A model generated the notes under the pieces. The model ran no database searches and had not been told where the DNA came from. It worked only from the letters and a program-made list of their open reading frames with translations. Source: Oceanibaculum pacificum (lineage in GTDB: Bacteria > Pseudomonadota > Alphaproteobacteria > Oceanibaculales > Oceanibaculaceae). Taken from it: a DNA stretch of 64,000 nt. The stretch lies in assembly GCF_001618175.1 (NCBI RefSeq), contig NZ_LPXN01000116.1, forward strand, positions 1 to 64,000, written 5' to 3'. The position numbers were made by a program, and so were the translations under genes. Positions within the stretch are counted from its first letter, which is position 1; each line of letters begins with the position of its first letter. This document shows positions 43,730 to 61,628 of the stretch, one piece after another.

Positions 43730-43738
43730 GGGGATGCC

Positions 43739-45135: not shown

Positions 45136-45152
45136 ACGTAAGGAGCAGGCTC

Positions 45153-45479: not shown

Positions 45480-45739
45480 CGGAGCACGTCGAGGGCTTCG
45501 AGGTGCCGCTGCACCGCGCGCTGACCGAGCCGATCCTGCTCGCCGGCGCGCCGCGCACCGTCGCCATCGTCAACGGCACGCTGGCGGCAGCACTGGGTTT
45601 GGGCCTCCGGCTCTGGATCGCCGGGCTCCTCGTCTGGGCCATCGGTCATTCGCTCGCCGCGTTCGCGGCGAAGCGCGACCCGCAGTTCGGTCAGGTGCTG
45701 AGCCGCCACCTCCGGCACAAAGGATGGCTCGAATGCTGA
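45476..45739 (+). CDS. trbD: TrbD (VirB3 family)
   Basis: An 87-aa inner-membrane protein with two hydrophobic stretches (VNGTLAAALGLGLRLWIAGL and VWAIGHSLAAFAA) and the conserved N-terminal PLHRALTEPILLAGAPR. VirB3/TrbD works with the TrbE ATPase in pilus biogenesis. It overlaps trbC by 4 nt and trbE by 16 nt. Confidence 0.92.
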   Translation: MTEHVEGFEVPLHRALTEPILLAGAPRTVAIVNGTLAAALGLGLRLWIAGLLVWAIGHSLAAFAAKRDPQFGQVLSRHLRHKGWLEC

Positions 45740-48222
45740 ACCTCGCCGAATACCGCGGCAAGCCGCAACGTCTCGCCGATTACCTGCCTTGGGCGGCACT
45801 GGTCGCGCCCGGCGTGGTGCTCAACAAGGACGGCAGCTTCCAGCGGACCTTCCGCTTCCGCGGCCCCGATCTGGAGAGCGCGACCGAGCCCGAGCTGGTC
45901 GCCACCTGTGCCCGGCTCAACAACGTGCTGCGGCGCTTCGGGTCGGGCTGGGCGCTGTTCTTCGAGGCCGAGCGCCACGCCGCGCCCGGCTACCCGGCGT
46001 CCGAATTCCCGGACCCGGCCTCCTGGCTGGTCGACCGGGAGCGCCGCGCCACCTTCGAGAACAGCTTGGGCGAACTCGATGGGGAGCCGGCGCGCCGTCA
46101 CCGGCAGCACTTCGAGAGCAGCTACTACCTGACGCTCCTCTATCTCCCGCCACCGGACCAAGTGAACCGGGCCGAGCGGGCGCTTCTGGAGACCCCGCCC
46201 GACGAGCGCGGGATCGACTACCGCGACCATCTCGAGGCCTTCGTCGCGGAGACCGACCGGGCGCTCGACCTGCTCTCCGGCCTGATGCCCGTCTGCGCGC
46301 CGCTCGACGACGCCGAGACGCTCACCTACCTGCACGGTACCGTCTCGGCCCGGCGCCATCCGGTCGCGGTGCCCGAGACGCCGATGTACCTGGATGCGGT
46401 GCTCGCCGATACGCCGCTCGCCGGCGGGCTCGAGCCGACGCTCGGCGACCGGCATCTGCGCACCGTCACCGCGCTGGGCTTTCCGAACACCTCCCGGCCG
46501 GGGCTGCTCGACGACCTCAACCACCTCGGCTTCGAATACCGCTGGGTCACGCGCTTCATACCGCTCGACAAGACCACGGCCAACAGCGCGTTGACTCGTC
46601 TTCGGCGCCAGTGGTTCGCGAAGCGCAAGTCGATCGCCGTGCTCCTGCGCGAGGTGCTCTACAACGAGCCGGCGCCTCTCCTCGACTCGGATGCCGACAA
46701 CAAGGCGGTCGATGCCGACGCGGCGCTCCAGGAGTTGGGTGGCGACCACGTGGCCTTCGGCTATCTGACGGCCACCGTCACGGTCTGGGACGAGAGCCGG
46801 GCCGGGGCTGCCGAGAAGGTCCGCGCGGTCGAGCGCGTCATCAACGCGCACGGCTTCACCACGATCCGAGAGACCGTCAATGCCGTCGAGGCATGGCTCG
46901 GAAGCCTGCCGGGACACGTCTATGCCAACGTCCGCCAGCCGCTGGTCCACACGCTGAATCTGGCGCATCTCGTGCCGCTGTCCGCGGTGTGGGCCGGGCC
47001 GGTGCGCAACGAGCATCTCGACGGACCCCCGCTGCTGCTCGCCGAGACCGGCGGCACCACGCCGTTCCGTCTTTCCACCCACGTCGGCGACGTCGGCCAC
47101 ATGCTGGTGGTCGGCCCGACCGGCGCCGGCAAGTCGGTGCTGCTGGCGCTGACGGCCTTGCAGTTCCGGCGCTACGCGGGCGCCCAGGTCTATGTCTTCG
47201 ACAAGGGCGGCTCAGCCCGCGCCGCGGCGCTTGCCATGGGCGGCCGGCACCATGCGCTCGGCATCGGCGGCGCGCTCTCGTTCCAGCCCCTGCGGCACAT
47301 CGACGATCCCGTCGTCCGGAGCTGGGCGGCGGAATGGATCGCCGGCCTGCTCGCGCACGAGAAGGTCGTCCTTGCGCCGGAAGTGAAGGAGAACGTCTGG
47401 TCGGCGCTCGGCAACCTCGCCTCGGCGCCGCCGGCGGAGCGCACCCTTACCGGGCTCTCTGTCGTCCTGCAGTCGAATGCCCTGCGGTCGGCACTCGCAC
47501 CCTACACGCTCGAAGGCCCCTACGGCGCGCTGCTCGACGCCGAGGAGGAGGAGCTCGCGCTGGCCGACGTGCAGTGCTTCGAGATGGAAGAGCTGATGCA
47601 GGAAGCGGGCGCCGTCCTGCCGGCGCTCACATATCTCTTCCATCGCCTGGAGGCGCGGTTCGGAAGCCCGTCCCCGACTGGATCGGGGAGCCGGCCGACG
47701 CTTCTGGTGCTCGACGAGGCCTGGCTCTTTCTCGACAATCCGCTGTTCGCCGGGCGCATCCGCGACTGGTTGAAGACGCTGCGCAAAAAGAACGTCGCCG
47801 TCGTCTTCGCCACCCAGTCGCTCGCCGATATCGCCGACAGCACCATCGCGCCGGCGCTGATCGAGTCCTGTCCGCAACGCATCTTCCTGCCGAACGATCG
47901 GGCGCTCGAGCCGCAGAGCCGGGAGGCCTACGAGCGCTTCGGTTTGAACACGCGGCAGGTCGAGCTGATCACCGCCGCCCAGCCGAAGCGCGACTACTAC
48001 CTGCAGTCCTGGCGCGGCAACCGGCTGTTCGAGCTGGGCCTCGGCCCGGTGGCGCTCGCCTTCTGCGCCGCATCCCAGCCGGCCGACCAGGCGCTCATTG
48101 ACCGGGTGCTGGCGGAAAATGGGCCAGAGCAGTTCGCCGAGGCCTGGCTCCGGGTGCGCGACCTCGACTGGGCAGCCGACCTGCTACGCGACTTCCCCGC
48201 CGAACAAGGAGGACAGCCATGA
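45724..48222 (+). CDS. trbE: TrbE type IV secretion ATPase (VirB4 family)
   Basis: An 832-aa VirB4-type ATPase. The N-terminal region (LNLAEYRGKPQRLADYLPWA, VLNKDGSFQRTFRFRGPDLE) is the CagE/TrbE/VirB domain. Walker A is GPTGAGKS in MLVVGPTGAGKSVLLAL and Walker B LLVLDEAWLFL. It powers pilin extraction and channel assembly. Starts inside trbD and overlaps trbJ at ATGA. Full length for the family. Confidence 0.95.
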   Translation: MARMLNLAEYRGKPQRLADYLPWAALVAPGVVLNKDGSFQRTFRFRGPDLESATEPELVATCARLNNVLRRFGSGWALFFEAERHAAPGYPASEFPDPASWLVDRERRATFENSLGELDGEPARRHRQHFESSYYLTLLYLPPPDQVNRAERALLETPPDERGIDYRDHLEAFVAETDRALDLLSGLMPVCAPLDDAETLTYLHGTVSARRHPVAVPETPMYLDAVLADTPLAGGLEPTLGDRHLRTVTALGFPNTSRPGLLDDLNHLGFEYRWVTRFIPLDKTTANSALTRLRRQWFAKRKSIAVLLREVLYNEPAPLLDSDADNKAVDADAALQELGGDHVAFGYLTATVTVWDESRAGAAEKVRAVERVINAHGFTTIRETVNAVEAWLGSLPGHVYANVRQPLVHTLNLAHLVPLSAVWAGPVRNEHLDGPPLLLAETGGTTPFRLSTHVGDVGHMLVVGPTGAGKSVLLALTALQFRRYAGAQVYVFDKGGSARAAALAMGGRHHALGIGGALSFQPLRHIDDPVVRSWAAEWIAGLLAHEKVVLAPEVKENVWSALGNLASAPPAERTLTGLSVVLQSNALRSALAPYTLEGPYGALLDAEEEELALADVQCFEMEELMQEAGAVLPALTYLFHRLEARFGSPSPTGSGSRPTLLVLDEAWLFLDNPLFAGRIRDWLKTLRKKNVAVVFATQSLADIADSTIAPALIESCPQRIFLPNDRALEPQSREAYERFGLNTRQVELITAAQPKRDYYLQSWRGNRLFELGLGPVALAFCAASQPADQALIDRVLAENGPEQFAEAWLRVRDLDWAADLLRDFPAEQGGQP

Positions 48223-48932
48223 AGCGCCATCTCGGTGTTGCCTGCCTGGCGGTGTGCCTCGCTCTTGCACCAATCCAGCCGGTGCAGGCGCTGACCGTGT
48301 TCGATCCCTCGAATTACAGCCAGAACGTCCTGCAGGCAGCTCGGGCGCTGCAACAGATCAACAACCAGATCCGCAGCCTGCAGAACCAGGTGCTGATGCT
48401 GCAGAACATGGCGAAGCACCTGGAGCGTCTCGATTACTCCTCTCTCGGCGCGATCCAGGCGGCGCTCGGCCGGATCAACCTGCTGATGGCGCAGGCCGAA
48501 GGCATCGCGTTTCGGGTCGATCGCACCGAGCAGGAATTCGCGCGGCTTTACCCCAAGGAGTACGCGGCGACCGTAACCACCGACGAACTCGCCCGCGACG
48601 CGCGCGGCCGCTGGGAGCATTCGATGGACGCCCTGCGCCAGACCATGCTGGTGCAGGCCGAGGTCGTGCAGAACGTCGAGGCCGACAGCGGCGAGCTCGC
48701 GCGCCTCCTCGCCGAGTCCCAGGCCGCCATCGGCAGCCTTCAGGCGCAACAGGCGACCAATCAGCTCATGGCGCTCTCGACCAAGCAGCAGCTCCAGACC
48801 CAGGAGTTGGTCGCCGCCCAGTACCGCGCCGAGGCGCTGGAGCGCGCCCGCGCGGCCGCCGCCCAGGAGCAGGCACGCGCGCAGTTCGACCGGTTCCTCG
48901 GCGACGGCAAGGCCTACACGCCGCTGGACTGA
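48219..48932 (+). CDS. trbJ: TrbJ (VirB5 family)
   Basis: A 237-aa exported protein with a signal peptide (about 1-24, VQA-LTVFDP), then long amphipathic coiled-coil helices rich in Gln and Ala (NVLQAARALQQINNQIRSLQ, RAAAAQEQARAQFDRF). This is typical TrbJ, a minor pilus component involved in recipient contact and entry exclusion. It follows trbE by a 4-nt overlap. TrbK would normally be next but only 18 bp separate trbJ from trbL. Confidence 0.9.
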   Translation: MKRHLGVACLAVCLALAPIQPVQALTVFDPSNYSQNVLQAARALQQINNQIRSLQNQVLMLQNMAKHLERLDYSSLGAIQAALGRINLLMAQAEGIAFRVDRTEQEFARLYPKEYAATVTTDELARDARGRWEHSMDALRQTMLVQAEVVQNVEADSGELARLLAESQAAIGSLQAQQATNQLMALSTKQQLQTQELVAAQYRAEALERARAAAAQEQARAQFDRFLGDGKAYTPLD

Positions 48933-48950
48933 GGTGAGCGAGGCGACGCC

Positions 48951-50270
48951 ATGGACGACATCAACGTCATCGACCGCTTCACGCAGACCTTCGTCACCTA
49001 TATCGACTCGGGCTTCGGTCTGCTGACGGGCGACGTCGCCTTCCTCACGTCACTCCTGGTCGCCATCGACATCACGCTCGCCGGGTTGTGGTGGGCGCTG
49101 GACGAAGGCTCCAACGTTCTCGCCCGGCTCATCCGGAAGGTGCTCTATGTCGGCGCCTTCGCGCTCATTCTGAACAACTGGCAGTTCTTCGCGGATCTTA
49201 TCTTCCAGTCCTTCTCGGGGCTGGGTCTCAAGGCGACGCCCACCGGGCTGACTCCGGATCGCCTGCTGCAACCGGGCTACGTTGCCGGCACGGGCTTCGA
49301 GGCCGCCTATCCGCTGATCCGGCAGGCGGGCGAGCTTCTCGGCTTCACGACCTTCTTCGACAATGCGGTGACGATTGTTGTGCTGGTCTTCGCCTGGCTG
49401 GTCGTGGTGCTCGCCTTCTTCATCCTCGCCGTCCAGCTCTTCATCACCATCATCGAGTTCAAGCTGACCACGCTCGCCGGCTTCGTGCTGGTGCCCTTCG
49501 CGCTGTGGAACAAGACGGCCTTCCTCGCCGAGCGTGTGCTCGGCAACGTGGTCGCCTCCGGCATCAAGGTCATGGTCCTCGCCGTCATCATCGGCATCGG
49601 CACCACGCTGTTCGGCGACTTCATCGGTGCCCTCGACGGCGAGGAGCCCAGCCTCGAGCAGGCGATGTCACTAGTGCTGGCCTCGCTCGCGCTGTTCGGC
49701 CTCGGCATCTTCGGGCCCGGCATCGCCGCCGGCCTGGTCTCTGGCGCACCCCAGCTCGGCGCCGGCGCTGCTGTTGGCACGGCGGGCGCGGTGGCCGGCG
49801 GCACGCTTGCCGGCGGTGCGGCCGCGGTCGGTATGACCCGCATGGCCGGTGCTGGCGGATTGTCCGCCGTGCGCGCCGGCACGGCGCTTTCGGCTGGCAC
49901 CGGCGCGGCCTACGGGATGGGCAAGGCCGCGTCGGGCGCCACCGGAGCGGCCGGCATGGTCGCTGGTATGGTCGGTGTCGCCAGGGCAGGGGCCGGTACG
50001 GCCCACGCCGCCGGGGCGCGCATGGTCGGTGGTTTCGCCGAGAGTGCGCAGCGCGGCCGCACGGCGGCATGGCAGGCGACCGGCGGCCGGCCGGCAGGTG
50101 GTCCTGCGATCGCCTCGGCTCCCCTGGGCGACGGCGGCGTTCCGGTATGGGCGCGGCGCCTGCGGGCGGAGCAACGCCGCCGTGCGCGCCTTCATTCGAC
50201 CGAGCAGGCAGTCCGGGAAGGGGACCGGCCCGGCGCCGGCGCGAATCCCGACCTGTCCGAGAGGGAGTGA
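48951..50270 (+). CDS. trbL: TrbL (VirB6 family)
   Basis: A 439-aa polytopic inner-membrane protein: about six hydrophobic segments in residues 25-260 (AFLTSLLVAIDITLAGLWWA, TIVVLVFAWLVVVLAFFILA, IKVMVLAVIIGIGTTLFGDF). A long Gly/Ala-rich tail (about 260-380) follows, which is usual for TrbL. It forms part of the channel through which the DNA strand passes. Immediately followed by trbF after 3 bp. Confidence 0.93.
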   Translation: MDDINVIDRFTQTFVTYIDSGFGLLTGDVAFLTSLLVAIDITLAGLWWALDEGSNVLARLIRKVLYVGAFALILNNWQFFADLIFQSFSGLGLKATPTGLTPDRLLQPGYVAGTGFEAAYPLIRQAGELLGFTTFFDNAVTIVVLVFAWLVVVLAFFILAVQLFITIIEFKLTTLAGFVLVPFALWNKTAFLAERVLGNVVASGIKVMVLAVIIGIGTTLFGDFIGALDGEEPSLEQAMSLVLASLALFGLGIFGPGIAAGLVSGAPQLGAGAAVGTAGAVAGGTLAGGAAAVGMTRMAGAGGLSAVRAGTALSAGTGAAYGMGKAASGATGAAGMVAGMVGVARAGAGTAHAAGARMVGGFAESAQRGRTAAWQATGGRPAGGPAIASAPLGDGGVPVWARRLRAEQRRRARLHSTEQAVREGDRPGAGANPDLSERE

Positions 50271-50273
50271 GCC

Positions 50274-50969
50274 ATGTTCCGGCGTGCGACCAACCGTTAC
50301 GGCGACACCCCCGAGCCCGTCACCCCGTACCAGAAGGCGGCGCAGCTCTGGGACGAGCGCCTCGGCTCGGCGCGCGTCCAGGCCCGGAACTGGCGCCTCA
50401 TGGCCTTCTTCTGCCTGGCGCTCGCCGCCGGGTTTGCGGCTGCCCTCATCTGGCAGTCGGCGCAGAGCCGGATCACGCCCTATGTCGTCGAGGTCGACGA
50501 GCTCGGCGCCGCCCAGGCGGTGGCGCCGGCCGTCCAGCCCTACGAGCCGACCGACGCCCAGATCGCCCATCACCTGGCGCGCTTCGTGCGGAACGTTCGC
50601 TCGCTCTCGATCGACCCCATCGTCGTGCGCAAGCGCTGGCTCGAGGCCTACGACTTTGCGACCGACCGGGCCGCCCAGACCCTCAACGAGTTCGCTCGCA
50701 TCAACGACCCCTTCAAGGCAGTCGGCGAGCGCAGCGTCTCCGTCGAGGTGACGAGCGTCGTGCGCGCTTCGGACGACTCCTTCCAGGTCAAGTGGACCGA
50801 GCGGACCTGGGAGGGTGGCAGCCTCGCCAAGACCGAGCGCTGGACCGGCATCCTGTCCATCGTCATCCGCCAGCCGCGCGACGTGGCGACGCTGCGCAAG
50901 AACCCGCTCGGCATCTACGTGCACGGCCTCGACTGGTCGCGCGAGCTCAACCCCGGAGAAACGCCATGA
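50274..50969 (+). CDS. trbF: TrbF (VirB8 family)
   Basis: A 231-aa protein with a short cytoplasmic N-terminus, one membrane helix (about 40-62, LMAFFCLALAAGFAAALIWQ) and a periplasmic VirB8-like NTF2 fold (VVEVDELGAAQAVAPA, FKVKWTERTWEGG-like block). It nucleates channel assembly. Overlaps trbG by 4 nt. Confidence 0.92.
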   Translation: MFRRATNRYGDTPEPVTPYQKAAQLWDERLGSARVQARNWRLMAFFCLALAAGFAAALIWQSAQSRITPYVVEVDELGAAQAVAPAVQPYEPTDAQIAHHLARFVRNVRSLSIDPIVVRKRWLEAYDFATDRAAQTLNEFARINDPFKAVGERSVSVEVTSVVRASDDSFQVKWTERTWEGGSLAKTERWTGILSIVIRQPRDVATLRKNPLGIYVHGLDWSRELNPGETP

Positions 50970-51985
50970 CTCCCATCCGCCACCTACTGTGCGGCGTGTC
51001 GGCGCTGGCGCTCGCCGCCTGTGCCGCCAAGGGCACGCCGCCCCCGGAGATCACTTACGACACCGGCGACTTCGTGCCCGCCGCCGTAGAGCAGGAGCCG
51101 CCCAGGCCGGTCGAGATCGTCGCCGTGCCCGAGCCGTTGCCGCTGCCGGGCCAGCTGAAGCCGGCGCCGAACGGGGAGCCGGCCGCGCCCGACGAAGGCC
51201 CGCCGACGGACCGGGTCGACGATGCCAATGCTGCTGCGCGGCTGGAGCCGACCGAGGACGGCTACATCAACGCGGTCCAGGTCTATCCCTTCACGAGGGG
51301 CGCGCTCTATCGCCTCTACGCGGCGCCGGAGCAGGTGAGCGATATCGCGCTTCAGCCGGGCGAGAAGCTGGTCGCGGTTTCGGCCGGCGACACGGTGCGC
51401 TGGGTGGTGGGCGACACCACCAGCGGCACCGGCGAACGCCAGCAGGTGCATGTGCTGGTGAAGCCGGTGGCGCCGGACCTCCGGACCAACCTCGTCATCA
51501 CCACCGACAGGCGGGCCTATCACCTGGAGCTGGAGAGCACCGAGGAGACCTACATGGCCTCGGTCTCGTGGCACTATCCGCACGAGGAGCTCGTCGCCCT
51601 TCGCCGGCAGAACGAGCGGGCGAATGAGACACAAAGTGTCGCGCAGGGTCTCGCACTCGACCGTCTCCGCTTCCGCTACGAGGTCACCGGCGACACGCCG
51701 CCGTGGCGGCCGCTCCGCGCGTTCGACGACACTTACAAGGTCTACATCGAGTTCCCGCGACGGATCGACCAGGGCGAAGCACCGCCGCTGTTCGTGGTCG
51801 GTCCCGAGGGCGGGGCGGAGCTCGTCAATTACCGCGTGCGTGGCAACTACTACATCGTCGACCGCCTGTTCGCCGCCGCCGAGCTCCGCCTCGGCGAGGA
51901 TCCCCAGCAGGTGGTCCGCATCAGTCGCACGGACGGGCGCCAGGCAAACGCGGCGCCGGCACGGGACGAGACGGAGGTCCGGTGA
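50966..51985 (+). CDS. trbG: TrbG (VirB9 family) lipoprotein
   Basis: A 339-aa protein with a lipoprotein signal (LALAACAAKG, lipobox Cys19), a proline-rich linker (about 40-95) and a C-terminal VirB9/CagX domain (YPFTRGALYRLYAAPEQVSD, TTDRRAYHLELESTEETYMA, YYIVDRLFAAAELRLG). It forms the outer part of the secretion core complex with TrbI. It follows trbF with ATGA overlap and overlaps trbI by one base. Confidence 0.93.
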   Translation: MTPIRHLLCGVSALALAACAAKGTPPPEITYDTGDFVPAAVEQEPPRPVEIVAVPEPLPLPGQLKPAPNGEPAAPDEGPPTDRVDDANAAARLEPTEDGYINAVQVYPFTRGALYRLYAAPEQVSDIALQPGEKLVAVSAGDTVRWVVGDTTSGTGERQQVHVLVKPVAPDLRTNLVITTDRRAYHLELESTEETYMASVSWHYPHEELVALRRQNERANETQSVAQGLALDRLRFRYEVTGDTPPWRPLRAFDDTYKVYIEFPRRIDQGEAPPLFVVGPEGGAELVNYRVRGNYYIVDRLFAAAELRLGEDPQQVVRISRTDGRQANAAPARDETEVR

Positions 51986-53232
51986 TGGCGGACCAGGCCG
52001 AACCGCGCAGCACCCCGCCGAAGAGCGACCCGGAAAGCTTAACGCTCCGAGCCCGGCCACGGCCCGTCACGCGCTTCAGCCGCAAGGTCCTGATCGCGGG
52101 CGCGGCACTCGGCTCGGCGGCGATCCTCGGAGCGACCCTCGTGGCGCTCGATCCGCCGACGTTCCGCGAGGAGCGACGTGGCGACGAGCTGTACAGCACC
52201 GAGCGTAAGCCGACTGCCGAGGGGCTGGCCGAGCTGCCGAGTGACTATGGCGACATGCCGAAGCCGACACCGGAGCTGGGCCCGCCGCTTCCCGGTGACG
52301 TGGGGCCGCCCGTGGTCGACATGGAGCGGGATCTCGGCGTGGCGCCGCCATCGGTACCGGCGTTCCGGCCCGACCCGGAGGCCGATGCCGCCCGGGCCGA
52401 ACGTCTGCGTCTCGCGCAACAGGCACGAAAGGCGCGCGAGTCGGAGGTGTTCTTCCAGATCTCCGCACGGCAAGGAACTACCGACGCCGCGGCGAATCCG
52501 GGGACAGGGCAGGGGGCATCTGACCCATACGTGGATGGCTCTGACGACCAAAGCCGGCTCGCACTCGACCCCGCCCGGGATCAGAACCACCAGGGCCGCA
52601 AGCTCGACTTCCTGAACCAGCGCGTCGACGACGCGGTCTACAATCCGCACCCGCTCCAGGACCCGGTCTCGCCCTACGTGGTGATGGCGGGCACGGCGAT
52701 CCAAGCGAGCCTGGTAACGGGCATCAACTCCGACTTGCCCGGACTGGTGATCGCCCAGGTCACCGGGAACGTCTACGACACGCCGACCGGCCGGCATCTC
52801 CTGATCCCGCAGGGCGCGCGCCTGATCGGAGAATACGACAGCGTCGTCGCCTTCGGGCAGAGCCGGGCGCTCGTCATCTGGAACCGCATCGTCATGCCGG
52901 ACGGCTCCTCGATCGTGATCGAGAACCTGCCGGCGACCGATACGGCCGGCTACGCGGGTCTCGAGGACGAGGTCGACTACCACACCTGGCGGCTGATCGC
53001 CGGCGTGGCGCTCTCGACGCTGCTCGGCGTCGGCACCGAGCTGACCTTCGGCGAAGAGGAGGGCAATCTCTTGCGGGCAATCCGCGAATCCGCCCAGCGC
53101 GACGCCAACCGCGCCGGTCAGCGCATCACCGAGCGCAACCTCAACATCCAGCCGACCATCACCGTCCGGCCTGGCTGGCCGCTGCGCGTCATCGTCCACA
53201 AGGACCTGGTGCTGAGACCCTACCGCGGCTGA
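51985..53232 (+). CDS. trbI: TrbI (VirB10 family)
   Basis: A 415-aa protein: a short cytoplasmic N-terminus, one membrane helix (about 36-54), a proline-rich periplasmic stretch (about 80-140) and the C-terminal VirB10 beta-barrel (YVVMAGTAIQASLVTGINSD, RHLLIPQGARLIGEYDSVVA, PTITVRPGWPLRVIVHKDLV). VirB10 spans the envelope and transmits ATPase energy to the outer-membrane pore. It ends the trb core; DUF2274 follows 14 bp later. No trbH is visible. Confidence 0.94.
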   Translation: MADQAEPRSTPPKSDPESLTLRARPRPVTRFSRKVLIAGAALGSAAILGATLVALDPPTFREERRGDELYSTERKPTAEGLAELPSDYGDMPKPTPELGPPLPGDVGPPVVDMERDLGVAPPSVPAFRPDPEADAARAERLRLAQQARKARESEVFFQISARQGTTDAAANPGTGQGASDPYVDGSDDQSRLALDPARDQNHQGRKLDFLNQRVDDAVYNPHPLQDPVSPYVVMAGTAIQASLVTGINSDLPGLVIAQVTGNVYDTPTGRHLLIPQGARLIGEYDSVVAFGQSRALVIWNRIVMPDGSSIVIENLPATDTAGYAGLEDEVDYHTWRLIAGVALSTLLGVGTELTFGEEEGNLLRAIRESAQRDANRAGQRITERNLNIQPTITVRPGWPLRVIVHKDLVLRPYRG

Positions 53233-53246
53233 CGGAGGAGATAGCC

Positions 53247-53480
53247 ATGCCCGACCTGAAGCTGTCCAAGCTCCCCGACCGGACACCGGTCAAGATCACC
53301 GTCACGGTCACGCCCGAGCTGAACAAGGCGCTTCAGGCCTATGCCGAGCTCTACCGCGAGACCTACGGCGAGGCCGAGCCCGTGGCGGAGCTCATCCCTT
53401 ACATGCTGGAGAGCTTCCTCGCCGCCGACCGCGGATTCGCCAAGGCGCGGCGGGAGCGCTCGTCCCCGAAACGCGGCTGA
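53247..53480 (+). CDS. DUF2274 protein
   Basis: A 77-aa basic protein of the DUF2274 family (LSKLPDRTPVKITVTVTPEL, AYAELYRETYGEAEPVAELI, MLESFLAADRGFAKARRERS). Its beta-strand plus two helices resemble a ribbon-helix-helix fold. It is a regular companion of trbI on alphaproteobacterial conjugative elements and may regulate the operon; function unproven. Confidence 0.9.
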   Translation: MPDLKLSKLPDRTPVKITVTVTPELNKALQAYAELYRETYGEAEPVAELIPYMLESFLAADRGFAKARRERSSPKRG

Positions 53481-53506
53481 CCCGATCAACGGAAGGAGGC
53501 AGAGCC

Positions 53507-53818
53507 ATGTCGATCATCGGTACGTTCACCCCCACCAAGAACGGTGGTTGGACCGGCACCATCCGCACGCTCACCATCGACGTGAAGGCGCGGTTCGTGC
53601 CCAACGACAACCGCGACAGCGACCGCGCGCCGGATTTCCGGGTGTTCGTCGGACGCTCAGAGGTTGGCGCTGCTTGGCGCGAGCGCACAAGTGGAGAAAG
53701 CCCGAAAGACTACGTCAGCGTCCGCCTCGACGATCCAACACTGGCGGAGCCGATATCCGCGGCTATGTTTACGGTCGCTGAGAGCCAGTCCGCGCAGCTC
53801 GTCTGGAGTCGACGGTAG
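53507..53818 (+). CDS. DUF736 protein (second copy)
   Basis: A 103-aa DUF736 protein (TPTKNGGWTGTIRTLTIDVK, DFRVFVGRSEVGAAWRE, YVSVRLDDPTLAEPISAAMF), diverged from the first copy at 31406. AAGGAGG precedes the ATG. It closes the transfer operon. The IS5-family element begins only 32 bp after its stop, and what used to follow it is unknown. Confidence 0.92.
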   Translation: MSIIGTFTPTKNGGWTGTIRTLTIDVKARFVPNDNRDSDRAPDFRVFVGRSEVGAAWRERTSGESPKDYVSVRLDDPTLAEPISAAMFTVAESQSAQLVWSRR

Positions 53819-53849
53819 TTACAGTAGCCTAATGGACTTAACGTTCTTA

Positions 53850-54750
53850 GAGACCGTTTGAGAAAGGGGATTCCCCTCGGGTGGGTTTCGTGATTCACCC
53901 TGTGCATGTGGACACGAGAGACGCGAGGCCGGATGGCCGGGATCGAGCGGAAGACCAAGCGGTACCCGACCGATCTGACCGACGAGGAGTGGTCGCGGAT
54001 CGCGCCGTTGCTGCCGACGCCGGCGCGGCGCGGGCGCAAGCCGAGCGTCGATCTCCGCGAGGTGTTGAACGCGATCCGCTACATGACCCGCACCGGCGGC
54101 GGCTGGCGGATGCTGCCGAAGGACTTCCCGCCGTGGCAGACGGTGTACTGGTGGTTTCGCCGGTTCGTGCGGCTGATGCTGTTCCAAACTATTCATGACA
54201 TCGCCCTGATGGTCGACCGCGAACGGGCCGGACGCGAGGCGAGCCCGAGCGGCGGTGTCGCCGACAGCCAGAGAGTCAAGGCCCCGGCGCCGGGCGCAGC
54301 GCGGGGATACGACGCGGCGAAGAAGACGGTCGGCCGCAAGCGCCACGTGGTGGTCGACACCGACGGGCGATTGCTGATGGCCAACCTGACCCCGGCCGAC
54401 ATCTCGGACAGTGCCGGGGCGCAAATGATCCTCGACGCCATCCGCAAACGCTGGCCGTGGCTCAAGCACCTGTTCGCCGACGGCGCCTACGACCGGACGC
54501 AGCTCATGGACAAGGCCGCGTTCCTGGATTTCGTCATCGAGGTCGTACGCCGCATCGACCACGAGCCCGGCTTCAAGGTCCTGCCCCGGCGCTGGGTGGT
54601 CGAGCGCACCTTCGGCTGGATGACCCGATGGCGGCGCCTGGTGCGCGACTACGAGCAGCGCATCGACGTCTCCGAGGCCATGATCCACGTCGCCATGGGA
54701 AGCCTTCTCCTGCGCCGCATCAGCCATTGAAGCCATTCTCAAACGGACTC
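53850..54750 (+). mobile_element. Complete IS5-family insertion sequence
   Basis: A 901-bp element with 18-bp terminal inverted repeats: GAGACCGTTTGAGAAAGG at 53850-53867 and its near-inverse at 54733-54750 (16 of 18 match). TTA flanks both sides (53847-53849 and 54751-54753), a 3-bp target duplication of the TNA type, as in the IS1031 group. Both ends and the transposase are intact, so insertion may be recent. Confidence 0.88.
53933..54730 (+). CDS. IS5-family transposase
   Basis: A 265-aa DDE transposase. The N-terminal region (RYPTDLTDEEWSRIAPLLP, NAIRYMTRTGGGWRMLPKDF) and the catalytic domain (VADSQRVKAPAPGAARGYD, KRHVVVDTDGRLL, LFADGAYDRTQLMD, PRRWVVERTFGWMTRWRRL) are complete, with catalytic Asp, Asp and Glu in the usual blocks. 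ATG 53933 gives the family start; ATG 53906 is an in-frame alternative. Single-frame, no frameshift. Confidence 0.93.
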   Translation: MAGIERKTKRYPTDLTDEEWSRIAPLLPTPARRGRKPSVDLREVLNAIRYMTRTGGGWRMLPKDFPPWQTVYWWFRRFVRLMLFQTIHDIALMVDRERAGREASPSGGVADSQRVKAPAPGAARGYDAAKKTVGRKRHVVVDTDGRLLMANLTPADISDSAGAQMILDAIRKRWPWLKHLFADGAYDRTQLMDKAAFLDFVIEVVRRIDHEPGFKVLPRRWVVERTFGWMTRWRRLVRDYEQRIDVSEAMIHVAMGSLLLRRISH

Positions 54751-54790: not shown

Positions 54791-56056
54791 TCAGGCCGCG
54801 TCTTCATAGAACAGCCCGTCATAGACGAAGGCGCTGCGGATCGCCTCGCAGTCGGCTTCGCTCGCCCCGGCGCGGCGCATGGTTGGACGCCATTCGTCCC
54901 GAACCGTGGCCGTGATCCGCTCGAATAGGAAGGTTGCCTCCTCGCGATTGAGCAGAAAGCGGCCCGAATCGCTGAGCAGATTCATCTTGTTGGCGTACCG
55001 GCCGAACCTCCCGCAGGCCATTGCGAGGTCGCGGCGATCCACAGCGACAACAGGAGAGGGGGTCAGATCAAAGGCCGGGCTCAGGCGCCAGTCTCGATCC
55101 TTGGCCAGCACCGCATGGTTGCGCGGATGATCGTCAAGATTGGACACGGCCGCATTGAAACAGATCCGCCCGAACAGCTCGCGCAAATCGTCTTCCGGAC
55201 GGGTGCTCACCCGGCGGATTTCATCGGCGAGCAGAAGATAGGACCAGTCGCCGCGCTCTCCGGGAGCGTCTCCCGCCCGGAGCAGCGTGAGGGCGCTCAC
55301 CATGCGGTGACGGCGGTATCCGGTCTCCGCCCAGTCGCGGTCGAAGCGGCGCACGAGCAGCACGTCACGTCCGCCAACCGTTTCCATTCGGCTGTCGGCA
55401 ACATCCAGGCCGCAGGTCTCGGCCAGCTTGAGCAGGCCGTGCTCAACCCGCGGATAATTCCAGCGGTCGTCCTGGCGGCTGAACTTCGCGATCCACAGAT
55501 CATTGTCCTGCTGGACCACCGCTTTGGGGCGGGCACCGCCCATCGACGTGCCGAGCATGAGAAGCTCTTCGGCCTGCCGGCCTGCCGAGCCGGCGCCGTC
55601 CGGATCGTCGGCGACAATGGCGTCGGCCGCCCTCTGGAGCCGTTCCAGGTCCACCGTCCGATTAAACCGGCGCTGCGGGGCCGGCGGTTCGACATTGAGA
55701 CCAAAGCCGAGCGCGCCGGCACGGTCGTCCGGCCCCTGCAACAGATAGTCGAATTCTTCGAGTTCGGTGAGGCCGGCGTTGCGCTCGATGACGCGCCGGC
55801 CCCAGAAATCAGGCATCGCGTCGCGGATGGCTCCGAAGAAGCCGTCCATGCGCGCGGTTTCATAGACCCGGCCGGAAAGCCGGAGCTCGACCGGGTCGAT
55901 TTCTACGGCATCGGCCCGCTCACGGTACGAGCGCCCATAGACGAACGCGCCGACAGCCCCGGCGCTGTCTTCGGTCCAACGGAACCGGCCCGCCGTCACG
56001 AACGCGGTTTCGCCGGGCGGGACAATATAAACGTAGCATTCCCGCTCAGAAGTCAT
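54791..56056 (-). CDS. hipA: HipA-like serine/threonine kinase toxin
   Basis: A 421-aa HipA-family kinase. The couple_hipA-like N-terminal part (FVYGRSYRERADAVEIDPVE) leads into the kinase core, with a Gly-rich loop region (MLGTSMGGARPKAVVQ), the catalytic NLDDHPRNH and the metal-binding DLTPSPV. HipA toxins phosphorylate targets such as glutamyl-tRNA synthetase, stalling translation. The start overlaps the hipB stop by 11 nt. Only 41 bp separate its stop from the IS end. Confidence 0.92.
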   Translation of the reverse strand: MTSERECYVYIVPPGETAFVTAGRFRWTEDSAGAVGAFVYGRSYRERADAVEIDPVELRLSGRVYETARMDGFFGAIRDAMPDFWGRRVIERNAGLTELEEFDYLLQGPDDRAGALGFGLNVEPPAPQRRFNRTVDLERLQRAADAIVADDPDGAGSAGRQAEELLMLGTSMGGARPKAVVQQDNDLWIAKFSRQDDRWNYPRVEHGLLKLAETCGLDVADSRMETVGGRDVLLVRRFDRDWAETGYRRHRMVSALTLLRAGDAPGERGDWSYLLLADEIRRVSTRPEDDLRELFGRICFNAAVSNLDDHPRNHAVLAKDRDWRLSPAFDLTPSPVVAVDRRDLAMACGRFGRYANKMNLLSDSGRFLLNREEATFLFERITATVRDEWRPTMRRAGASEADCEAIRSAFVYDGLFYEDAA

Positions 56057-56387
56057 CGCTCAGCGTCCTTCGGCTGCGGGCTGTTTTCGGGCTGCGCGCA
56101 CGCTCAAGGGTCATACCTTCCTCGTCCCGCGCCGGGTCGGCGACCTCCTTCATCTGACTGAGGAGGTCCAGCACCCACAGGGCCCCCATATAGGCGGCAA
56201 CACCTGTGGTCGGCTTGCCCTTTTCGACATCGGCCACGACGAATCGGGACACCCCCATGCGCCGGGCCATGTCGTCCTGCGTCAGTTTGCGTCTGACACG
56301 GGCCGTGCGGATGTTGGCGCCCAGTCGTTCCAGGGTCTCCCGGACGGCCGCGGGCGGGGATTCGGCGATTTGGCTCTGACGGGGCAT
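56046..56387 (-). CDS. hipB: HipB-like antitoxin (XRE family)
   Basis: A 113-aa helix-turn-helix antitoxin (LGANIRTARVRRKLTQDDMA, RRMGVSRFVVADVEKGKPTT), first gene of the minus-strand hipBA operon. HipB binds the kinase and represses its own promoter. The C-terminal 25 residues are basic and probably flexible. A dyad in the upstream spacer is a likely operator. Confidence 0.9.
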   Translation of the reverse strand: MPRQSQIAESPPAAVRETLERLGANIRTARVRRKLTQDDMARRMGVSRFVVADVEKGKPTTGVAAYMGALWVLDLLSQMKEVADPARDEEGMTLERARSPKTARSRRTLSDDF

Positions 56388-56440: not shown

Positions 56441-56603
56441 CCCCGTAATGTCAAACGGACGAAGGTTCCTTTGTTGCTTTTACGCACCCTAAAGGACCTA
56501 TATGTTAACTCAAAACAACATTCGTAAGCTTGACCTCAAGAATTCGCAGACAGAAGCGAATCCACCTTGCGTGATGTAAAGTGGTGCAATTAACATCACC
56601 CTC

Positions 56604-56831
56604 ATGCCCAGACCCCGCGGAACGCGCAAAACAGCTCGAATATCGGTCAGCCTGGACGCCGAGGACTACGCCGTCCTGACGGAGATCGCTCGCAGGGAGG
56701 ACGTTTCGGTCGCCTGGGTGGTGCGCCGGGCCGTCGGCGAAGTCGTTCGCGCCCATCAGTCGGGAGCCGCCGAACCCGAATTGCCTCTGTCCGGAAGGTC
56801 TGCGTCGACCAAGGGAACGGGTACGCAATGA
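56604..56831 (+). CDS. Ribbon-helix-helix protein heading the SIR2-PIWI operon
   Basis: A 75-aa RHH protein (TARISVSLDAEDYAVLTEIA, VSVAWVVRRAVGEVVRAHQ) with a Ser/Thr-rich tail. It is likely an autoregulatory DNA-binding protein. Its stop overlaps the start of the SIR2-PIWI gene (ATGA), so it is translationally coupled to it. It is divergent from hipBA across 216 bp. Regulators of this type are known ahead of some defence operons, but its action here is inferred. Confidence 0.85.
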   Translation: MPRPRGTRKTARISVSLDAEDYAVLTEIARREDVSVAWVVRRAVGEVVRAHQSGAAEPELPLSGRSASTKGTGTQ

Positions 56832-59800
56832 ACCAGGCCGTATCTCCGCTTCCCGACCAGGAAGGCAAGGAGGATATCGTCCTCTCGCTCGACGCCTTCG
56901 TCCGCTCTGTAGGGGTCCGCAAAAGCGCACCTCTCTCCGTCTTCCTCGGAGCGGGAGCGTCGATAAGTTCCGGCTTGCCTTCGGCGGAATTGTGCATCTG
57001 GGAATGGAAGCGCAGCATCTTCCTGACCAATAATCCCGGTCTCGAGGCCCAGTTCTCCGAATTGACCCTGCCCGCCATCCGCCGCCGGATACAACAATGG
57101 CTGGACAGCCAGGGGATCTACCCGCCGGAAGGGAGCCCGGACGAATACGGCTACTATATCCGTGAGTGCTTCCCGATCGCCGAGGATCGGCGCGCCTATT
57201 TTCGGGAGAAGATCCGGACCGCCCGACCGCATATCGGTTATCAACTGGTCTGCCAGCTCGCCGAAGCCGGTTTGATGCGTTCTGTATGGTCCACGAATTT
57301 CGACGGACTCGCTGCCCGGGCCGCGGCTTCTTATAGCCTGACGCCGCTTGAAGTCGGGATTGACAGCCAGCAGCGCCTGACCCGGCCGACGTCCGATGGC
57401 GAGCTTCTTTGTATCTCCCTGCACGGCGATTATCGCTATGACGCCCTGAAGAACACGTCCGAAGAGTTGCAGACCCAGGAAGCGGCGCTGCGTCAGGCGC
57501 TGATCGAGGAAACGCGAAGCACGCCCCTCATCGTGGCCGGCTATAGCGGCCGGGACGATTCCGTTATGGAAGCGCTTTATGCCGCCTATGCCGAAGCAGG
57601 ATCCGGCACATTGTACTGGTGCGGTTTCGGCGACGGCGATCCGCCGGCTCCTGTAGCAGATCTGATTCGCCATGCCCGCGAACACGGGCGCAACGCGTAT
57701 TACGTGCCCACACTGGGCTTCGACGACCTCATGACGCGCCTCGCCCTCCATTGTCTTCAGGGTGACCGTCGCGAAGCCGCTCAACACGCCATTGCCCAGA
57801 TCGCCCCTCAAGATGCGCTACATCGGGAGCCTTTCGACGTTCCCGAGTACGCGGCCGGCACGCTGATCAAGAGCAACGCCTTCGAGATCGATTGTCCGGG
57901 CGAGGTACTTCAGTTCGATCTCAAAACCTGGCCGACCGAACGGGTCTGGGCGACGCTCCGCGAGACCGTTGGCGACCGTCATTTGGTCGCGGTGCCGTTT
58001 CGCAAGGTGCTGGCTCTCGGCACGATCGAGGACATCCGGGACGCTTTCGGTGACAACATCAAGGGACCGATCGAGCGTACGCCGGTGACCCCGGATGATC
58101 TCAAATATGAAGACGGCGCCGTCGTTTCTCTGATGCGACAGGCGCTTGTTCGGTCAATGGCCGCAAAGGCCGGGCTGGAAACCGACGGCCGCAAACAGCT
58201 TTGGCGATCGGCCGTACTCCGTTCCGTTCAACGCTCCATAGGGCGCTATGCCGTTCACGAGGCGGCGGAAATCTTCCTGCGCCGCATCGGCGGCGTCCAG
58301 CATTTGGTCCTGATGCCGTCTCTCAAAGTGTTCGATCAGGCCGGCGCCGAGCCACCGCCTGAAATCGCCAATCCGATCAAACTCGAAATCCTCGGCTACC
58401 AGCATAACGGTCCTTTTAACAAAGCGGTCAATAGCTGGCGCAAGGAACTGTTCGGGGATGATCGCCAGGCGGCGTTCACTTTTCCACCCGACTGCGGATC
58501 TGGCTTCACGTTTCGGATCCGGCGCTCCCCCGCCTTCGGCCGGATCGGATTGCCGACCGGTGGCCGTCCACTCACCGTACCCGGGACCATGCAGCCACTG
58601 ATCAAGCACAGCGGTGTGCAACTGGCCGAGCCTGCCTTGCTCTTTTCCAATAAAGGGGGCACGGCCGCTGTCCGTGATACGCATCCCATTCGCGGAATCC
58701 TGGACAACCGCCCCTATGATTATCCTCTCACCGCCCGGGGCCTCTCGCCGTCATTGCGTATCGGTGTCGTCTGTCCAGCCGCCGAAGCCGGCACGCTACA
58801 ATCCTATCTCCAGAATATTCACCGGGCCTTCAGTCCGCGTCGTACTGAGCAGGACTACCTTCTCGACTATCCGGGATTCCAGGCAGCCTATGGCTTGCCC
58901 ATCGAACTCCCGGCGCCGGATTCGCCGGGATGGATGACGTGTCCCGAACCCGCGGCCCGCAACGCCGCTGAGGGGTCGCTCGAAGTCGCGCGTCTTATCG
59001 ACCGCAGCATCGAGGCGCTCCAGTCCTCCTACGCGCCGGATGTCGTCCTGATCTACTTCCCCGACCGCTGGCAAAGCTTCCGCGGCTACAGCACGGACTC
59101 CGAAAGCTTCGACGTCCACAACTTCGTGAAGGCCTTCTGCGTCCAGCGCGGTATCGCCACACAGTTCCTCAATGAGGATACGCTCTCCGATAACCAGCAG
59201 TGCCGCGTTTGGTGGTGGCTTTCCCTGGCGCTTTACGTCAAGGGCATGCGCACACCGTGGCTCCTGGACAACCTGGCCGACAACGCCGCTTTCGTCGGAC
59301 TCGGCTTCAGCATCGATAAGTCCGCTCAGCGTGGCGATCATGTCGTGCTCGGATGCAGCCATATCTACAGCGCTCGCGGCGAGGGGCTTCAATACCGTCT
59401 CAGCAAGGTCGAGAATCCGATCATCCGCCGCGGCAATCCGTTCATGTCCAGCGATGATGCGCGCCGTGTCGGCGACACCATCCGTCAGCTCTTCTTCGAC
59501 GCGCGGATGGCGCTTCCCGAGCGTGTTGTCCTTCACAAGCGCACGCCCTTCACGAAGGACGAGCGGGAAGGATTGCGCGACGGCCTGAGCGGCGTCGGCT
59601 CTATCGATATGCTCGAAATCCAGATCGATCACGCCCTTCGCTACCTAGCGTCGACCGTGAAGCCGGACGGAACGCCGGGTGAAGACAATTACCCGGTGCG
59701 CCGCGGTACGGTGATGAAGCTCGACGATTTCAGCGCGCTTCTCTGGGTCCACGGCGCAACCAGCGCGCTGAACCCCCGCTACAAATACTTCCAGGGAAAG

Positions 59801-60022
59801 CGCCGGATTCCTGCGCCCCTCATCATTCGGCGCCATGCCGGCAATACGCCATTGCAGGATATGGCCGGTGAGATCCTGGGCCTTTCCAAGATGAACTGGA
59901 ACACCTTCGACCTCTACACCAAGCTGCCGGCGACCCTGCAATCGTCCAACGAAATCGCGAGAATTGGGTCCCTGCTGCAGCGTTTCGGAGCGGCCTCCTA
60001 TGATTACCGGCTCTTTATATGA
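56828..60022 (+). CDS. SIR2-APAZ-PIWI single-chain short Argonaute
   Basis: A 1064-aa protein. Residues about 30-300 are a SIR2 NADase-type domain: GAGAS at 41-45, Asn157 and Asp159 in STNFDG, His199 in SLHGDY. The middle (about 330-600) is APAZ-like (RVWATLRETVGDRHLVAVPF). Residues about 690-1064 look like a MID-PIWI module (DVVLIYFPDRWQSFRGYST, AFVGLGFSIDKSAQRGDHVV, FTKDEREGLRDG, GTVMKLDDFSALLWVHG). No DEDX catalytic tetrad is apparent, as in other short Argonautes. In SPARSA systems these two halves are separate proteins: guide-directed recognition of invader DNA triggers NAD+ depletion. Here they are fused in one chain. Confidence 0.88.
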   Translation: MNQAVSPLPDQEGKEDIVLSLDAFVRSVGVRKSAPLSVFLGAGASISSGLPSAELCIWEWKRSIFLTNNPGLEAQFSELTLPAIRRRIQQWLDSQGIYPPEGSPDEYGYYIRECFPIAEDRRAYFREKIRTARPHIGYQLVCQLAEAGLMRSVWSTNFDGLAARAAASYSLTPLEVGIDSQQRLTRPTSDGELLCISLHGDYRYDALKNTSEELQTQEAALRQALIEETRSTPLIVAGYSGRDDSVMEALYAAYAEAGSGTLYWCGFGDGDPPAPVADLIRHAREHGRNAYYVPTLGFDDLMTRLALHCLQGDRREAAQHAIAQIAPQDALHREPFDVPEYAAGTLIKSNAFEIDCPGEVLQFDLKTWPTERVWATLRETVGDRHLVAVPFRKVLALGTIEDIRDAFGDNIKGPIERTPVTPDDLKYEDGAVVSLMRQALVRSMAAKAGLETDGRKQLWRSAVLRSVQRSIGRYAVHEAAEIFLRRIGGVQHLVLMPSLKVFDQAGAEPPPEIANPIKLEILGYQHNGPFNKAVNSWRKELFGDDRQAAFTFPPDCGSGFTFRIRRSPAFGRIGLPTGGRPLTVPGTMQPLIKHSGVQLAEPALLFSNKGGTAAVRDTHPIRGILDNRPYDYPLTARGLSPSLRIGVVCPAAEAGTLQSYLQNIHRAFSPRRTEQDYLLDYPGFQAAYGLPIELPAPDSPGWMTCPEPAARNAAEGSLEVARLIDRSIEALQSSYAPDVVLIYFPDRWQSFRGYSTDSESFDVHNFVKAFCVQRGIATQFLNEDTLSDNQQCRVWWWLSLALYVKGMRTPWLLDNLADNAAFVGLGFSIDKSAQRGDHVVLGCSHIYSARGEGLQYRLSKVENPIIRRGNPFMSSDDARRVGDTIRQLFFDARMALPERVVLHKRTPFTKDEREGLRDGLSGVGSIDMLEIQIDHALRYLASTVKPDGTPGEDNYPVRRGTVMKLDDFSALLWVHGATSALNPRYKYFQGKRRIPAPLIIRRHAGNTPLQDMAGEILGLSKMNWNTFDLYTKLPATLQSSNEIARIGSLLQRFGAASYDYRLFI

Positions 60023-60840
60023 CCACCGGTGCCTATCCGGAGGCGTCCATGACTGAGGCGTTTTCTGACCGGCACGGCTATAGAGGCACCGACGCCGAGA
60101 TCACCGTCCGCGAAGACGCCCCCGAGGGCCTACGCTACGCTATTCCCCTGATTGCCCACGGCATCGGCATGAGCCCGACCGCCATGCGGCGCGTCATTTG
60201 TCAGGTCCTGCTCGTTCCGCCTGATCCCTCGAACTGGTCGAATTATCCGAATATTTGGGGCGAGGTGAACGAGCTCATCGAAGATTGCCCCTGGTATAAG
60301 GTCTATGATGTCGCCGAAGCTCTCCACGACGCATTTGAACGGACCGATCCAGACTGTGCTCGGCAGTTTACCGATCGTCTCAATCAGTATTTTCGCGAGA
60401 ATGGTATCGGCTGGGACATGCGGAAGGGCCGCTTCGTTTTCAGAGGATCGGAAGTATTCCAGGAAGCGACCACCGAGGCCGCCAGCGTTTTGATGGATGC
60501 AGGGCGGGAAAGGGCCGCCAGCGAGATTCACGAAGCGCTGCGCGACATCTCGCGCCGGCCCGACCCCGACATTACCGGCGCCATGCAGCATGCGATCGCC
60601 GCACTGGAAGCGACTGCCCGCGACGTAGCCGGAGAGCCGAACCGAACCCTCGGCCAGCTTGTCCGCAATCTGAGCTTACCCGCTCCGTTGGATGCCGCAG
60701 TCGTAAAGCTCTGGGGTTATGCATCGGACCGCGCTCGTCACGTGCGCGAAGGCCAGGAAATCGACACGGCGGAAGCTGAACTCCTCGTCAGTGTTGCCTG
60801 CGCCGTCTGTACCTTCCTGTCGCGGCGGAACAGCCCTTGA
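60019..60840 (+). CDS. AbiJ-like abortive-infection protein
   Basis: A 273-aa protein. Residues about 15-110 (FSDRHGYRGTDAEITVREDA, LRYAIPLIAHGIGMSPTAMR, EVNELIEDCPWYKVYDVAEA) match the AbiJ N-terminal domain 4 type. The C-terminal half is helical (AMQHAIAALEATARDVAGEP, LIRNLSLPAPLDAAVVKLWG) and HEPN-like, resembling the end region of AbiJ family proteins. It overlaps the SIR2-PIWI gene by 4 nt (ATGA) and is probably an accessory or effector of the same system. Its biochemical activity is unknown. Confidence 0.75.
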   Translation: MTTGAYPEASMTEAFSDRHGYRGTDAEITVREDAPEGLRYAIPLIAHGIGMSPTAMRRVICQVLLVPPDPSNWSNYPNIWGEVNELIEDCPWYKVYDVAEALHDAFERTDPDCARQFTDRLNQYFRENGIGWDMRKGRFVFRGSEVFQEATTEAASVLMDAGRERAASEIHEALRDISRRPDPDITGAMQHAIAALEATARDVAGEPNRTLGQLVRNLSLPAPLDAAVVKLWGYASDRARHVREGQEIDTAEAELLVSVACAVCTFLSRRNSP

Positions 60841-61628
60841 ACGCGCCCAATCCTGCCCGTCAAAAGGCGGCACGCAACACGCTCGACAGAATGTTCGCCG
60901 AGTCGGCGAACGCTTGGATCATTCATTATTCGTGTGAGAGCTTTTACGATCGTCCCGACGGACGATCCCCCCGCGTGACCTCAATTGCGCTCCGCAAACT
61001 CGATTCCGCACAAACCGTGTCGTTCTCTATCCATCAGACCGCCGAGCGCCGCGGCATCCCGTTCGACCGCATCGAACAGCATTACGACGAGCTGGAACAG
61101 GAAATGCTGGACAACTTTTTTGCCCACCTGGGCGGGCACCGCGGGATGAAGTACCTGCACTGGAATATGCGGGACGCCAACTATGGCTTTCAGGCCATTG
61201 AACACCGTTATCGCGTTCTGGGCGGCGAGCCCTTCGTTATCGACGACAACAACAAAATCGATCTGTCCCGCCTGCTGATCGACATATATGGGGTCGGCTA
61301 CATCGATCATCCTCGTATGGAGCGTCTGCTCGACAAGAATCACATCGCGCCGCGCGATTTCCTGAGCGGCGCCGAGGAAGCCCGGGCTTTCGAAGACCGC
61401 AATTTTGTCGGTCTGCATCAGTCGACCCTGCGAAAGGTCGACGTCATCGCCAACATTGCCGGGCGCGCTCATGACCGCAATCTGAAGACCAACGCCTCCT
61501 GGTGGGCTATGCATGGCGGCCGCCTCCGCACAGCGCTCGTCTGGATGGCCGAAAACAAAACCTTCCAGCTTGTTACTGGGTTGGCCAGCCTTGTGGGGCT
61601 TGGCCTAGCTCTTTGGGCCTTCCTCTAG
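60837..61628 (+). CDS. Membrane-anchored protein of unknown function in the SIR2-PIWI operon
   Basis: A 263-aa protein translated from a TTG that overlaps the previous stop (TTGA). Residues about 25-230 show blocks ANAWIIHYSCESFYD, KYLHWNMRDANYGFQAIEHR and GLHQSTLRKVDVIANI, loosely spaced like motifs I-III of a DEDDh exonuclease, but the acidic residues are only partly kept. Residues about 243-263 are a C-terminal membrane helix (TGLASLVGLGLALWAFL). So it may be a degenerate RNase H-fold protein anchored to the inner membrane. I do not recognise a named family. ATG 60891 is an alternative start that would lose coupling. Confidence 0.7.
   Translation: MNAPNPARQKAARNTLDRMFAESANAWIIHYSCESFYDRPDGRSPRVTSIALRKLDSAQTVSFSIHQTAERRGIPFDRIEQHYDELEQEMLDNFFAHLGGHRGMKYLHWNMRDANYGFQAIEHRYRVLGGEPFVIDDNNKIDLSRLLIDIYGVGYIDHPRMERLLDKNHIAPRDFLSGAEEARAFEDRNFVGLHQSTLRKVDVIANIAGRAHDRNLKTNASWWAMHGGRLRTALVWMAENKTFQLVTGLASLVGLGLALWAFL

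Follow-up and report, generated by a model that had tools for sequence, protein, structure and literature searches.

A single-chain SIR2-APAZ-PIWI Argonaute of Oceanibaculum pacificum linked to one AbiJ-type and one membrane-anchored gene

Do the genes packed behind a single-chain SIR2-APAZ-PIWI Argonaute in Oceanibaculum pacificum belong to its defence mechanism? The operon occupies 56604–61628 of the stretch analysed here (64,000 nucleotides of contig NZ_LPXN01000116.1, hereafter the window), where open reading frame (ORF) analysis confirms four consecutive plus-strand genes, P1–P4. P3 and P4 are linked to the Argonaute in three genomes, in a gene order that is rare among relatives; these two attached genes, and not the Argonaute type, are the new content. 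On balance, and with moderate confidence, we favour a probably mobile short-Argonaute cassette behind which two portable defence modules have been captured and are co-expressed. The cassette is probably regulated by the ribbon-helix-helix (RHH) protein P1. Its features are as follows:

56571–56599, no strand: imperfect dyad, putative operator, just before the RHH start (13-nt arms, 85% complementary, 3-nt spacer)
56604–56831, plus strand: P1, RHH DNA-binding protein, 75 aa (Pfam RHH_1; a 65% identical RHH directly precedes the Argonaute of locus L100)
56828–60022, plus strand: P2, single-chain SIR2-APAZ-MID-PIWI short Argonaute, 1064 aa (Pfam, PADLOC, solved SPARSA chains)
60039–60043, plus strand: GGAGG, probable ribosome-binding site of P3 (sequence and homologue starts)
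60049–60840, plus strand: P3, AbiJ_NTD4 protein with a HEPN-like C-terminal domain (Pfam, homologue starts, model)
60837–61628, plus strand: P4, phrog_8766 member with a predicted PolB-exonuclease-domain fold and a C-terminal transmembrane helix, 263 aa, TTG start (profile, model)

A scan of 84,980 species, with one genome per species, yielded 261 pattern matches, and the best 80 of 84 relatives resolve into 76 distinct loci. Linkage could be scored in 60 loci, those whose best alignment segment includes the Argonaute C terminus and whose downstream DNA extends for 2 kb or more; the other 16 are uncounted. The order Argonaute–P3–P4 recurs in 2 of the 60, from Roseitalea (L042) and Azospirillum isscasi (L098), and among the loci compared P3 and P4 occur together only there and in the window. 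The three genes diverge together. For the last 114 residues of the Argonaute, identity is 85.1% between the window and L042, 82.5% between the window and L098 and 93.0% between L042 and L098; the same pairs give 70.6%, 69.6% and 90.1% for P3, and 79.1%, 78.3% and 92.0% for P4. Retention of the P3/P4 overlap and of a short Argonaute/P3 gap despite 15–30% divergence suggests selection for co-expression. L098 retains only a remnant of the Argonaute (residues 951–1064, forming the last part of a 178-aa ORF), with no match to residues 1–950 within 7 kb upstream, and full-length P3 and P4.

The initial annotation had placed an AbiJ-type and a membrane-anchored gene tightly behind the Argonaute, and this linkage stands, recurring as it does in L042 and L098. 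What the annotation named as refuting its own reading, loci in which the two genes are not linked to the Argonaute, was also observed: 58 of the 60 loci do without them, including the closest relative, and plasmids, viral-collection contigs and chromosomes carry relatives of the two genes where no fused Argonaute is present. With only 2 of the 60 loci sharing the order with the window, a general Argonaute–P3–P4 system was rejected. The proposed joining of all four genes by 4-nt overlaps holds for P1/P2 (ATGA, readable also in the Chelativorans relative L100) and for P3/P4 (TTGA in the window, ATGA in L098, TGATG in L042), and is probably wrong for Argonaute/P3. The P3 ORF, ending at 60840, could start at 60019 (273 aa) or 60049 (263 aa). 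Because the start codons of its homologues correspond to ATG 60049 and GGAGG precedes this codon, P3 most likely begins there, 26 nt past the Argonaute stop codon.

In the Argonaute tree, the window groups with L030 (a Bryobacterales metagenome-assembled genome, 76% identity) and L031 (a Gemmatimonadetes metagenome-assembled genome, 73%); L032, L034 and L042 lie near this group. L030 lacks P1, P3 and P4, and L031, with just 912 bases downstream, lacks P3. Since the window is nearer to both of these than to L042, P3–P4 may have been lost on the L030/L031 branch or have joined the Argonaute more than once.

The Argonaute itself conforms to type. P2 matches SIR2_2 at 33.4 bits (cut-off 24.5) and Piwi at 15.8 bits, under the 28.9 cut-off (Pfam), and two PADLOC models span it: the prokaryotic Argonaute (pAgo) model PDLC02384 (residues 17–1064, 1377.8 bits) and PDLC02420, Aga_SIR2-PNTD1-PNTD2 (residues 21–1064, 650 bits). 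An APAZ region between SIR2 and MID-PIWI is assigned through these spanning models. Both chains of a solved SPARSA (short pAgo with SIR2-APAZ) are matched, the short Argonaute 8in8_C over P2 592–1063 (E = 1e-52) and the SIR2-APAZ chain 8in8_B over 32–327 (E = 1.5e-33). The NADase Asn-His dyad is intact: N157 and H199 align with GsSir2 N142 and H186, and are kept in 62 and 63 of 63 fused-family sequences. Likewise, all four residues of the guide 5′-end pocket are present (GsAgo H166, K170, Q181 and N184 correspond to P2 H764, K768, Q779 and N782); the first three are conserved (62/63, 63/63 and 63/63), and N782 is variable, with Asn in 8 of 63. Roles of GsSir2 N142/H186 and GsAgo H166/K170/Q181 follow PMC10781750, which together with PMC6299218 also describes the PIWI catalytic tetrad as absent from short pAgos. 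Domains, PADLOC models, solved chains and dyad and pocket residues thus agree with the single-chain Argonaute of 1064 aa first proposed; by analogy, P2 most likely acts like SPARSA, depleting NAD+ once a guide has led it to invader DNA.

The fusion is not new, because full-length fused relatives were found in number (62 of the 76 loci, each in one alignment segment) and the architecture has long been described. The surveys to which the initial annotation alluded exist, and with the 76 loci they rule out the fusion as a novelty: PMC2743648 describes N-terminal SIR2 fusions of pAgos, PMC6299218 SIR2-APAZ short pAgos and PMC10954474 mentions single-chain APAZ-Argonautes. Among 398 sampled whole genomes of the phylum, full-length fused relatives are rare, amounting to the window's own genome and one other. 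P2 finds 104 plasmid records, all below 60% identity and 2 covering at least 80%, and 4 phage records; a viral-collection scan with the Argonaute alone gave no match. In a DNA-level comparison the operon is absent as a whole from plasmid records; the 4 that match each cover at most 15% of it. A single-chain Sir2-Ago from Paraburkholderia graminis has reportedly been tested experimentally; we found no confirming statement in the open-licence literature.

Other fused Argonautes have different neighbours. In L037, L038, L039, L040 and L044, which form another Argonaute clade, a related gene precedes the Argonaute at a distance of −1 to 15 bp; it is a different type of partner, a superfamily 2 helicase in the two cases tested (L037 and L040). 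In the lachnospiraceal loci L076, L077 and L096, a Schlafen AlbA_2-type gene (tested in L077) lies 66–155 bp upstream.

P1 is an RHH_1 protein (34.1 bits, cut-off 20.5, E = 2.4e-8). Among the 69 loci with the Argonaute N terminus and at least 400 bases upstream, a homologue lies directly 5′ of the Argonaute in one, L100, where it is 65% identical; this count rests on tblastn at E ≤ 1e-3 only, which could miss small or divergent regulators before other Argonautes. A further weak RHH match in L040 is 2.8 kb upstream and not adjacent, and the L100 contig stops 76 bases past the Argonaute match. The sequence GTGRTGCAATYAACATCAC, covering the 3′ part of the dyad at 56571–56599, was found among the 154 loci compared only just before the L100 RHH gene, besides the window's own copies. 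As the dyad sits at the start site of the RHH gene and is its putative operator, we infer self-repression, making P1 the probable autoregulator of the operon.

P3 belongs to AbiJ_NTD4 (PF18863; 95.9 bits, cut-off 34). In its model (4 sequences, mean pLDDT 77.9), HEPN chains are the top VIA-align matches of the C-terminal half (1wol, Z 13.1, 2.6 Å over 108 residues), a Z score at about the level where the tool warns for helical bundles. Foldseek returned nothing for the model at E ≤ 0.001, and neither the P3 nor the P4 profile matched PDB sequences. Among 8 homologues of P3, no R-x4-6-H stretch terminates at the conserved RH (R230 H231); other R-x4-6-H stretches occur in 4 of the 8, two ending at the invariant H181. 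We model the C-terminal half as HEPN-like, with the canonical RNase motif missing. P3 relatives are found in 31 plasmid records, in one viral contig and, within the class, in 3 of 385 genomes (its own included). On a Phaeobacter plasmid (L002), the relative adjoins a HipA gene, which separates it from a DUF4365-protein/short-pAgo pair 2.1 kb away; in Methylocystis it follows AbiEi/AbiEii. Neither P4 nor a fused Argonaute was present in the seven P3 neighbourhoods read (these two and five others). In L164, Pfam and PADLOC gave nothing for the gene before P3.

P4 is hit by no model of Pfam, PADLOC or NCBIfam at E ≤ 1 and belongs to phrog_8766 (E = 1e-78), a family of unknown function. It models confidently (AlphaFold, 30 sequences, mean pLDDT 90.1) as the 3′–5′ exonuclease domain of family-B DNA polymerases, which are its top structural match (9oat_A, Z 15.1, 3.0 Å over 165 residues; VIA-align). 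Foldseek ranks a transposase first (E = 1.8e-3) and exonucleases in the next rows, none at E ≤ 0.001. The corresponding Pfam family, PF03104, is matched at E ≤ 0.1 by 9 of 30 P4 family members (best 8.6e-5), the window P4 not among them. Against E. coli PolB and one relative, hhalign aligned only the Exo II neighbourhood, at probabilities of 0.64 and 0.44%; given these very low values, support for the fold comes from the AlphaFold model, from VIA-align and from the nine weak Pfam matches.

The usual acids of this fold (DxE, D and D) are not conserved in register. Strand 1 reads HYSCE, and none of the 30 sequences has DxE there. Asp is not among the five commonest residues at N110+5, which together account for 27 of the 30, and the third catalytic Asp position is taken by K200 (30/30). 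The register follows from structural end points and the WN motif, not from coordinates. The conserved residues thus do not support P4 as an ordinary active exonuclease. Ten positions are invariant in all 30 sequences (H30, Y31, H108, W109, M111, R112, G117, S196, T197 and K200), and the acids E34 (27/30), D113 (27/30) and D142 (24/30), which are conserved, could form a different active site. The model ends in a transmembrane helix (241–262), and a strongly hydrophobic C-terminal stretch exceeds the threshold in 25 of 30 sequences.

Structure prediction thus gave folds for both proteins, HEPN-like and PolB-exonuclease-like, and the canonical catalytic residues of neither. Of the roles first ascribed to them, the AbiJ-like identity of the third gene is borne out by the AbiJ_NTD4 score, and the membrane anchoring of the fourth by its hydrophobic C-terminal helix. 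The suggestion that they add a step of abortive or membrane type is still conjecture, because P3 is without the HEPN RNase motif and P4 without the usual exonuclease acids.

P4 relatives occur in 6 plasmid records, 45 viral-collection loci and 8 phage records, and in 2 of 385 class and 3 of 382 phylum genomes sampled, own genome included in each. In 44 of the 45 viral-collection loci, no Argonaute match lies in the flanking DNA covered, up to 5 kb on either side. Among the neighbourhoods read gene by gene, the relative follows a TrlF-type ATPase in one and a metallo-β-lactamase protein resembling LmuA/Avs1a in another. Two streptococcal prophages carry it near CI repressor and integrase genes (L156, 3971–4759; L157, 3471–4259), in one case adjoining an annotated excisionase; these relatives are candidate superinfection-exclusion genes. 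The viral contig L113 has a P4 homologue (3719–4543) divergent from a split SIR2-APAZ/pAgo pair. In L173, the pAgo is 98% identical to that of L113 and P4 is not nearby; among 17 viral loci with relatives of this pAgo, P4 occurs in one, the L113 contig itself. L113 and L173 form a natural presence/absence pair for P4 beside a split SIR2-APAZ/pAgo.

The operon lies among genes of mobile elements. Upstream, at 41681–54730, are conjugation genes (TraG and TrbE types) and then an IS4/5-family transposase, followed by a HipA-like kinase and its helix-turn-helix partner (54794–56387, minus strand), transcribed away from the operon. A ResIII/DEAD helicase starts 277 bp after P4 (61906–63999, continuing to contig position 65202); its homologue in Parapedobacter (L059) lies 22 bp after a fused Argonaute. 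A large serine recombinase is encoded downstream of the operon on the 99-kb contig. The element is probably integrative and conjugative.

Among known systems, SPARSA (GsSir2-APAZ/GsAgo; PDB 8in8 and relatives; PMC10781750) and P2 share the SIR2 Asn-His dyad, APAZ, MID-PIWI and guide-pocket residues; SPARSA consists of two chains, whereas the window has one chain with linked RHH, AbiJ_NTD4 and membrane genes. The single-chain Argonautes of P. graminis (L057) and P. xenovorans (L093) share domain order, length class and about 49% whole-chain identity with P2 but, unlike it, have no P3 or P4 homologue within 7 kb downstream. AbiJ-NTD4/HEPN proteins (PF18863; PMC3710099) share the AbiJ_NTD4 domain and the HEPN-like C-terminal model with P3, which differs in having no R-x4-6-H at the conserved RH position. 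P4 has the predicted fold of PF03104, but does not conserve the usual catalytic acids, carries a C-terminal transmembrane helix and is not part of a polymerase. SiAgo-Aga1-Aga2 functions as a membrane-effector Argonaute system. It and BPAM (PMC10620215) set an Argonaute beside a protein with a transmembrane segment, as in the window; the likeness is one of gene arrangement, and they use archaeal or long-B Argonautes whereas the window Argonaute carries its own SIR2 domain. No treatment of a prokaryotic Argonaute together with AbiJ was found in the open-licence PMC literature, a scope that does not establish absence in print.

Under the captured-module reading, P1 would repress its own promoter and keep the operon low, as the dyad suggests. 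An RNA guide held by P2 would pair with single-stranded invader DNA, as in SPARSA; the APAZ/MID-PIWI part would relay recognition to the SIR2 domain, which, by the activity of characterised relatives, would hydrolyse NAD+ and thereby halt or kill the cell before the invader can spread. P3 and P4, translated with the Argonaute, would most likely act on triggers of their own as extra layers. At the membrane, P4 may detect DNA ends or incoming DNA, which would fit its position near a repressor gene in the two streptococcal prophages. Several points weigh against this reading. The same order and tight spacing in three genomes would also be expected of an obligate multi-gene system, and independent modules need not be confined, as P3 and P4 together are, to positions behind this Argonaute or its remnant. 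With the usual RNase motif missing from P3 and the usual acids from P4, stand-alone action is unproven too.

The best-surviving rival, which we consider possible though clearly less probable, is an integrated composite in which P3 and P4 depend on the Argonaute, P3 as a second effector or NADase inhibitor and P4 as a membrane tether or DNA-entry sensor. Such dependence is possible: gene order is conserved, the three genes co-diverge and P3 and P4 are together only with this Argonaute or its remnant. Catalytically inactive Argonautes with membrane-type partners are known, and EaBPAM cell death depends on a transmembrane effector (PMC10620215); the P4 homologue of L113 sits divergently beside a split SIR2-APAZ/pAgo pair. 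Set against these are the absence of P3 and P4 from 58 of 60 testable fused loci, the retention of P3–P4 in L098 despite a broken Argonaute, the 44 of 45 viral-collection P4 loci with no Argonaute match, and L173, which has a nearly identical pAgo without P4, a gene found in just one of the 17 viral loci. A layered arrangement, in which the NADase Argonaute controls or is positioned by P4, a membrane pseudo-exonuclease catching DNA ends, and P3 is an Argonaute-gated second effector, is more tentative still.

That P3 and P4 are mere defence-island neighbours inherited with the Argonaute, with no selected link, is improbable. The window, L042 and L098 may go back to a single assembly event (90–93% identity between L042 and L098), and the operon is flanked by hipBA-like genes and a helicase; yet the P3/P4 overlap and short Argonaute/P3 gap persist in all three over 15–30% divergence from the window. 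Very unlikely is a regulator or antitoxin role for P3 or P4 in restraining the SIR2 NADase: both lack the catalytic residues canonical for their folds, but among 62 full-length fused relatives (some with too little downstream DNA) either was detected only in L042, and P4 relatives have no Argonaute match in all but one of the viral-collection loci.

If the layered arrangement were true, P4 would establish a new family of DNA sensors at membranes, common to phages and bacterial defence. phrog_8766, uncharacterised and phage-borne, gains a structure-based and directly testable hypothesis, that its members are membrane-anchored relatives of proofreading domains without the usual catalytic acids. 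The operon, with a NADase Argonaute of a known kind tied to two portable modules, makes it possible to test cleanly whether defence genes that are stacked work jointly or only move as a group.

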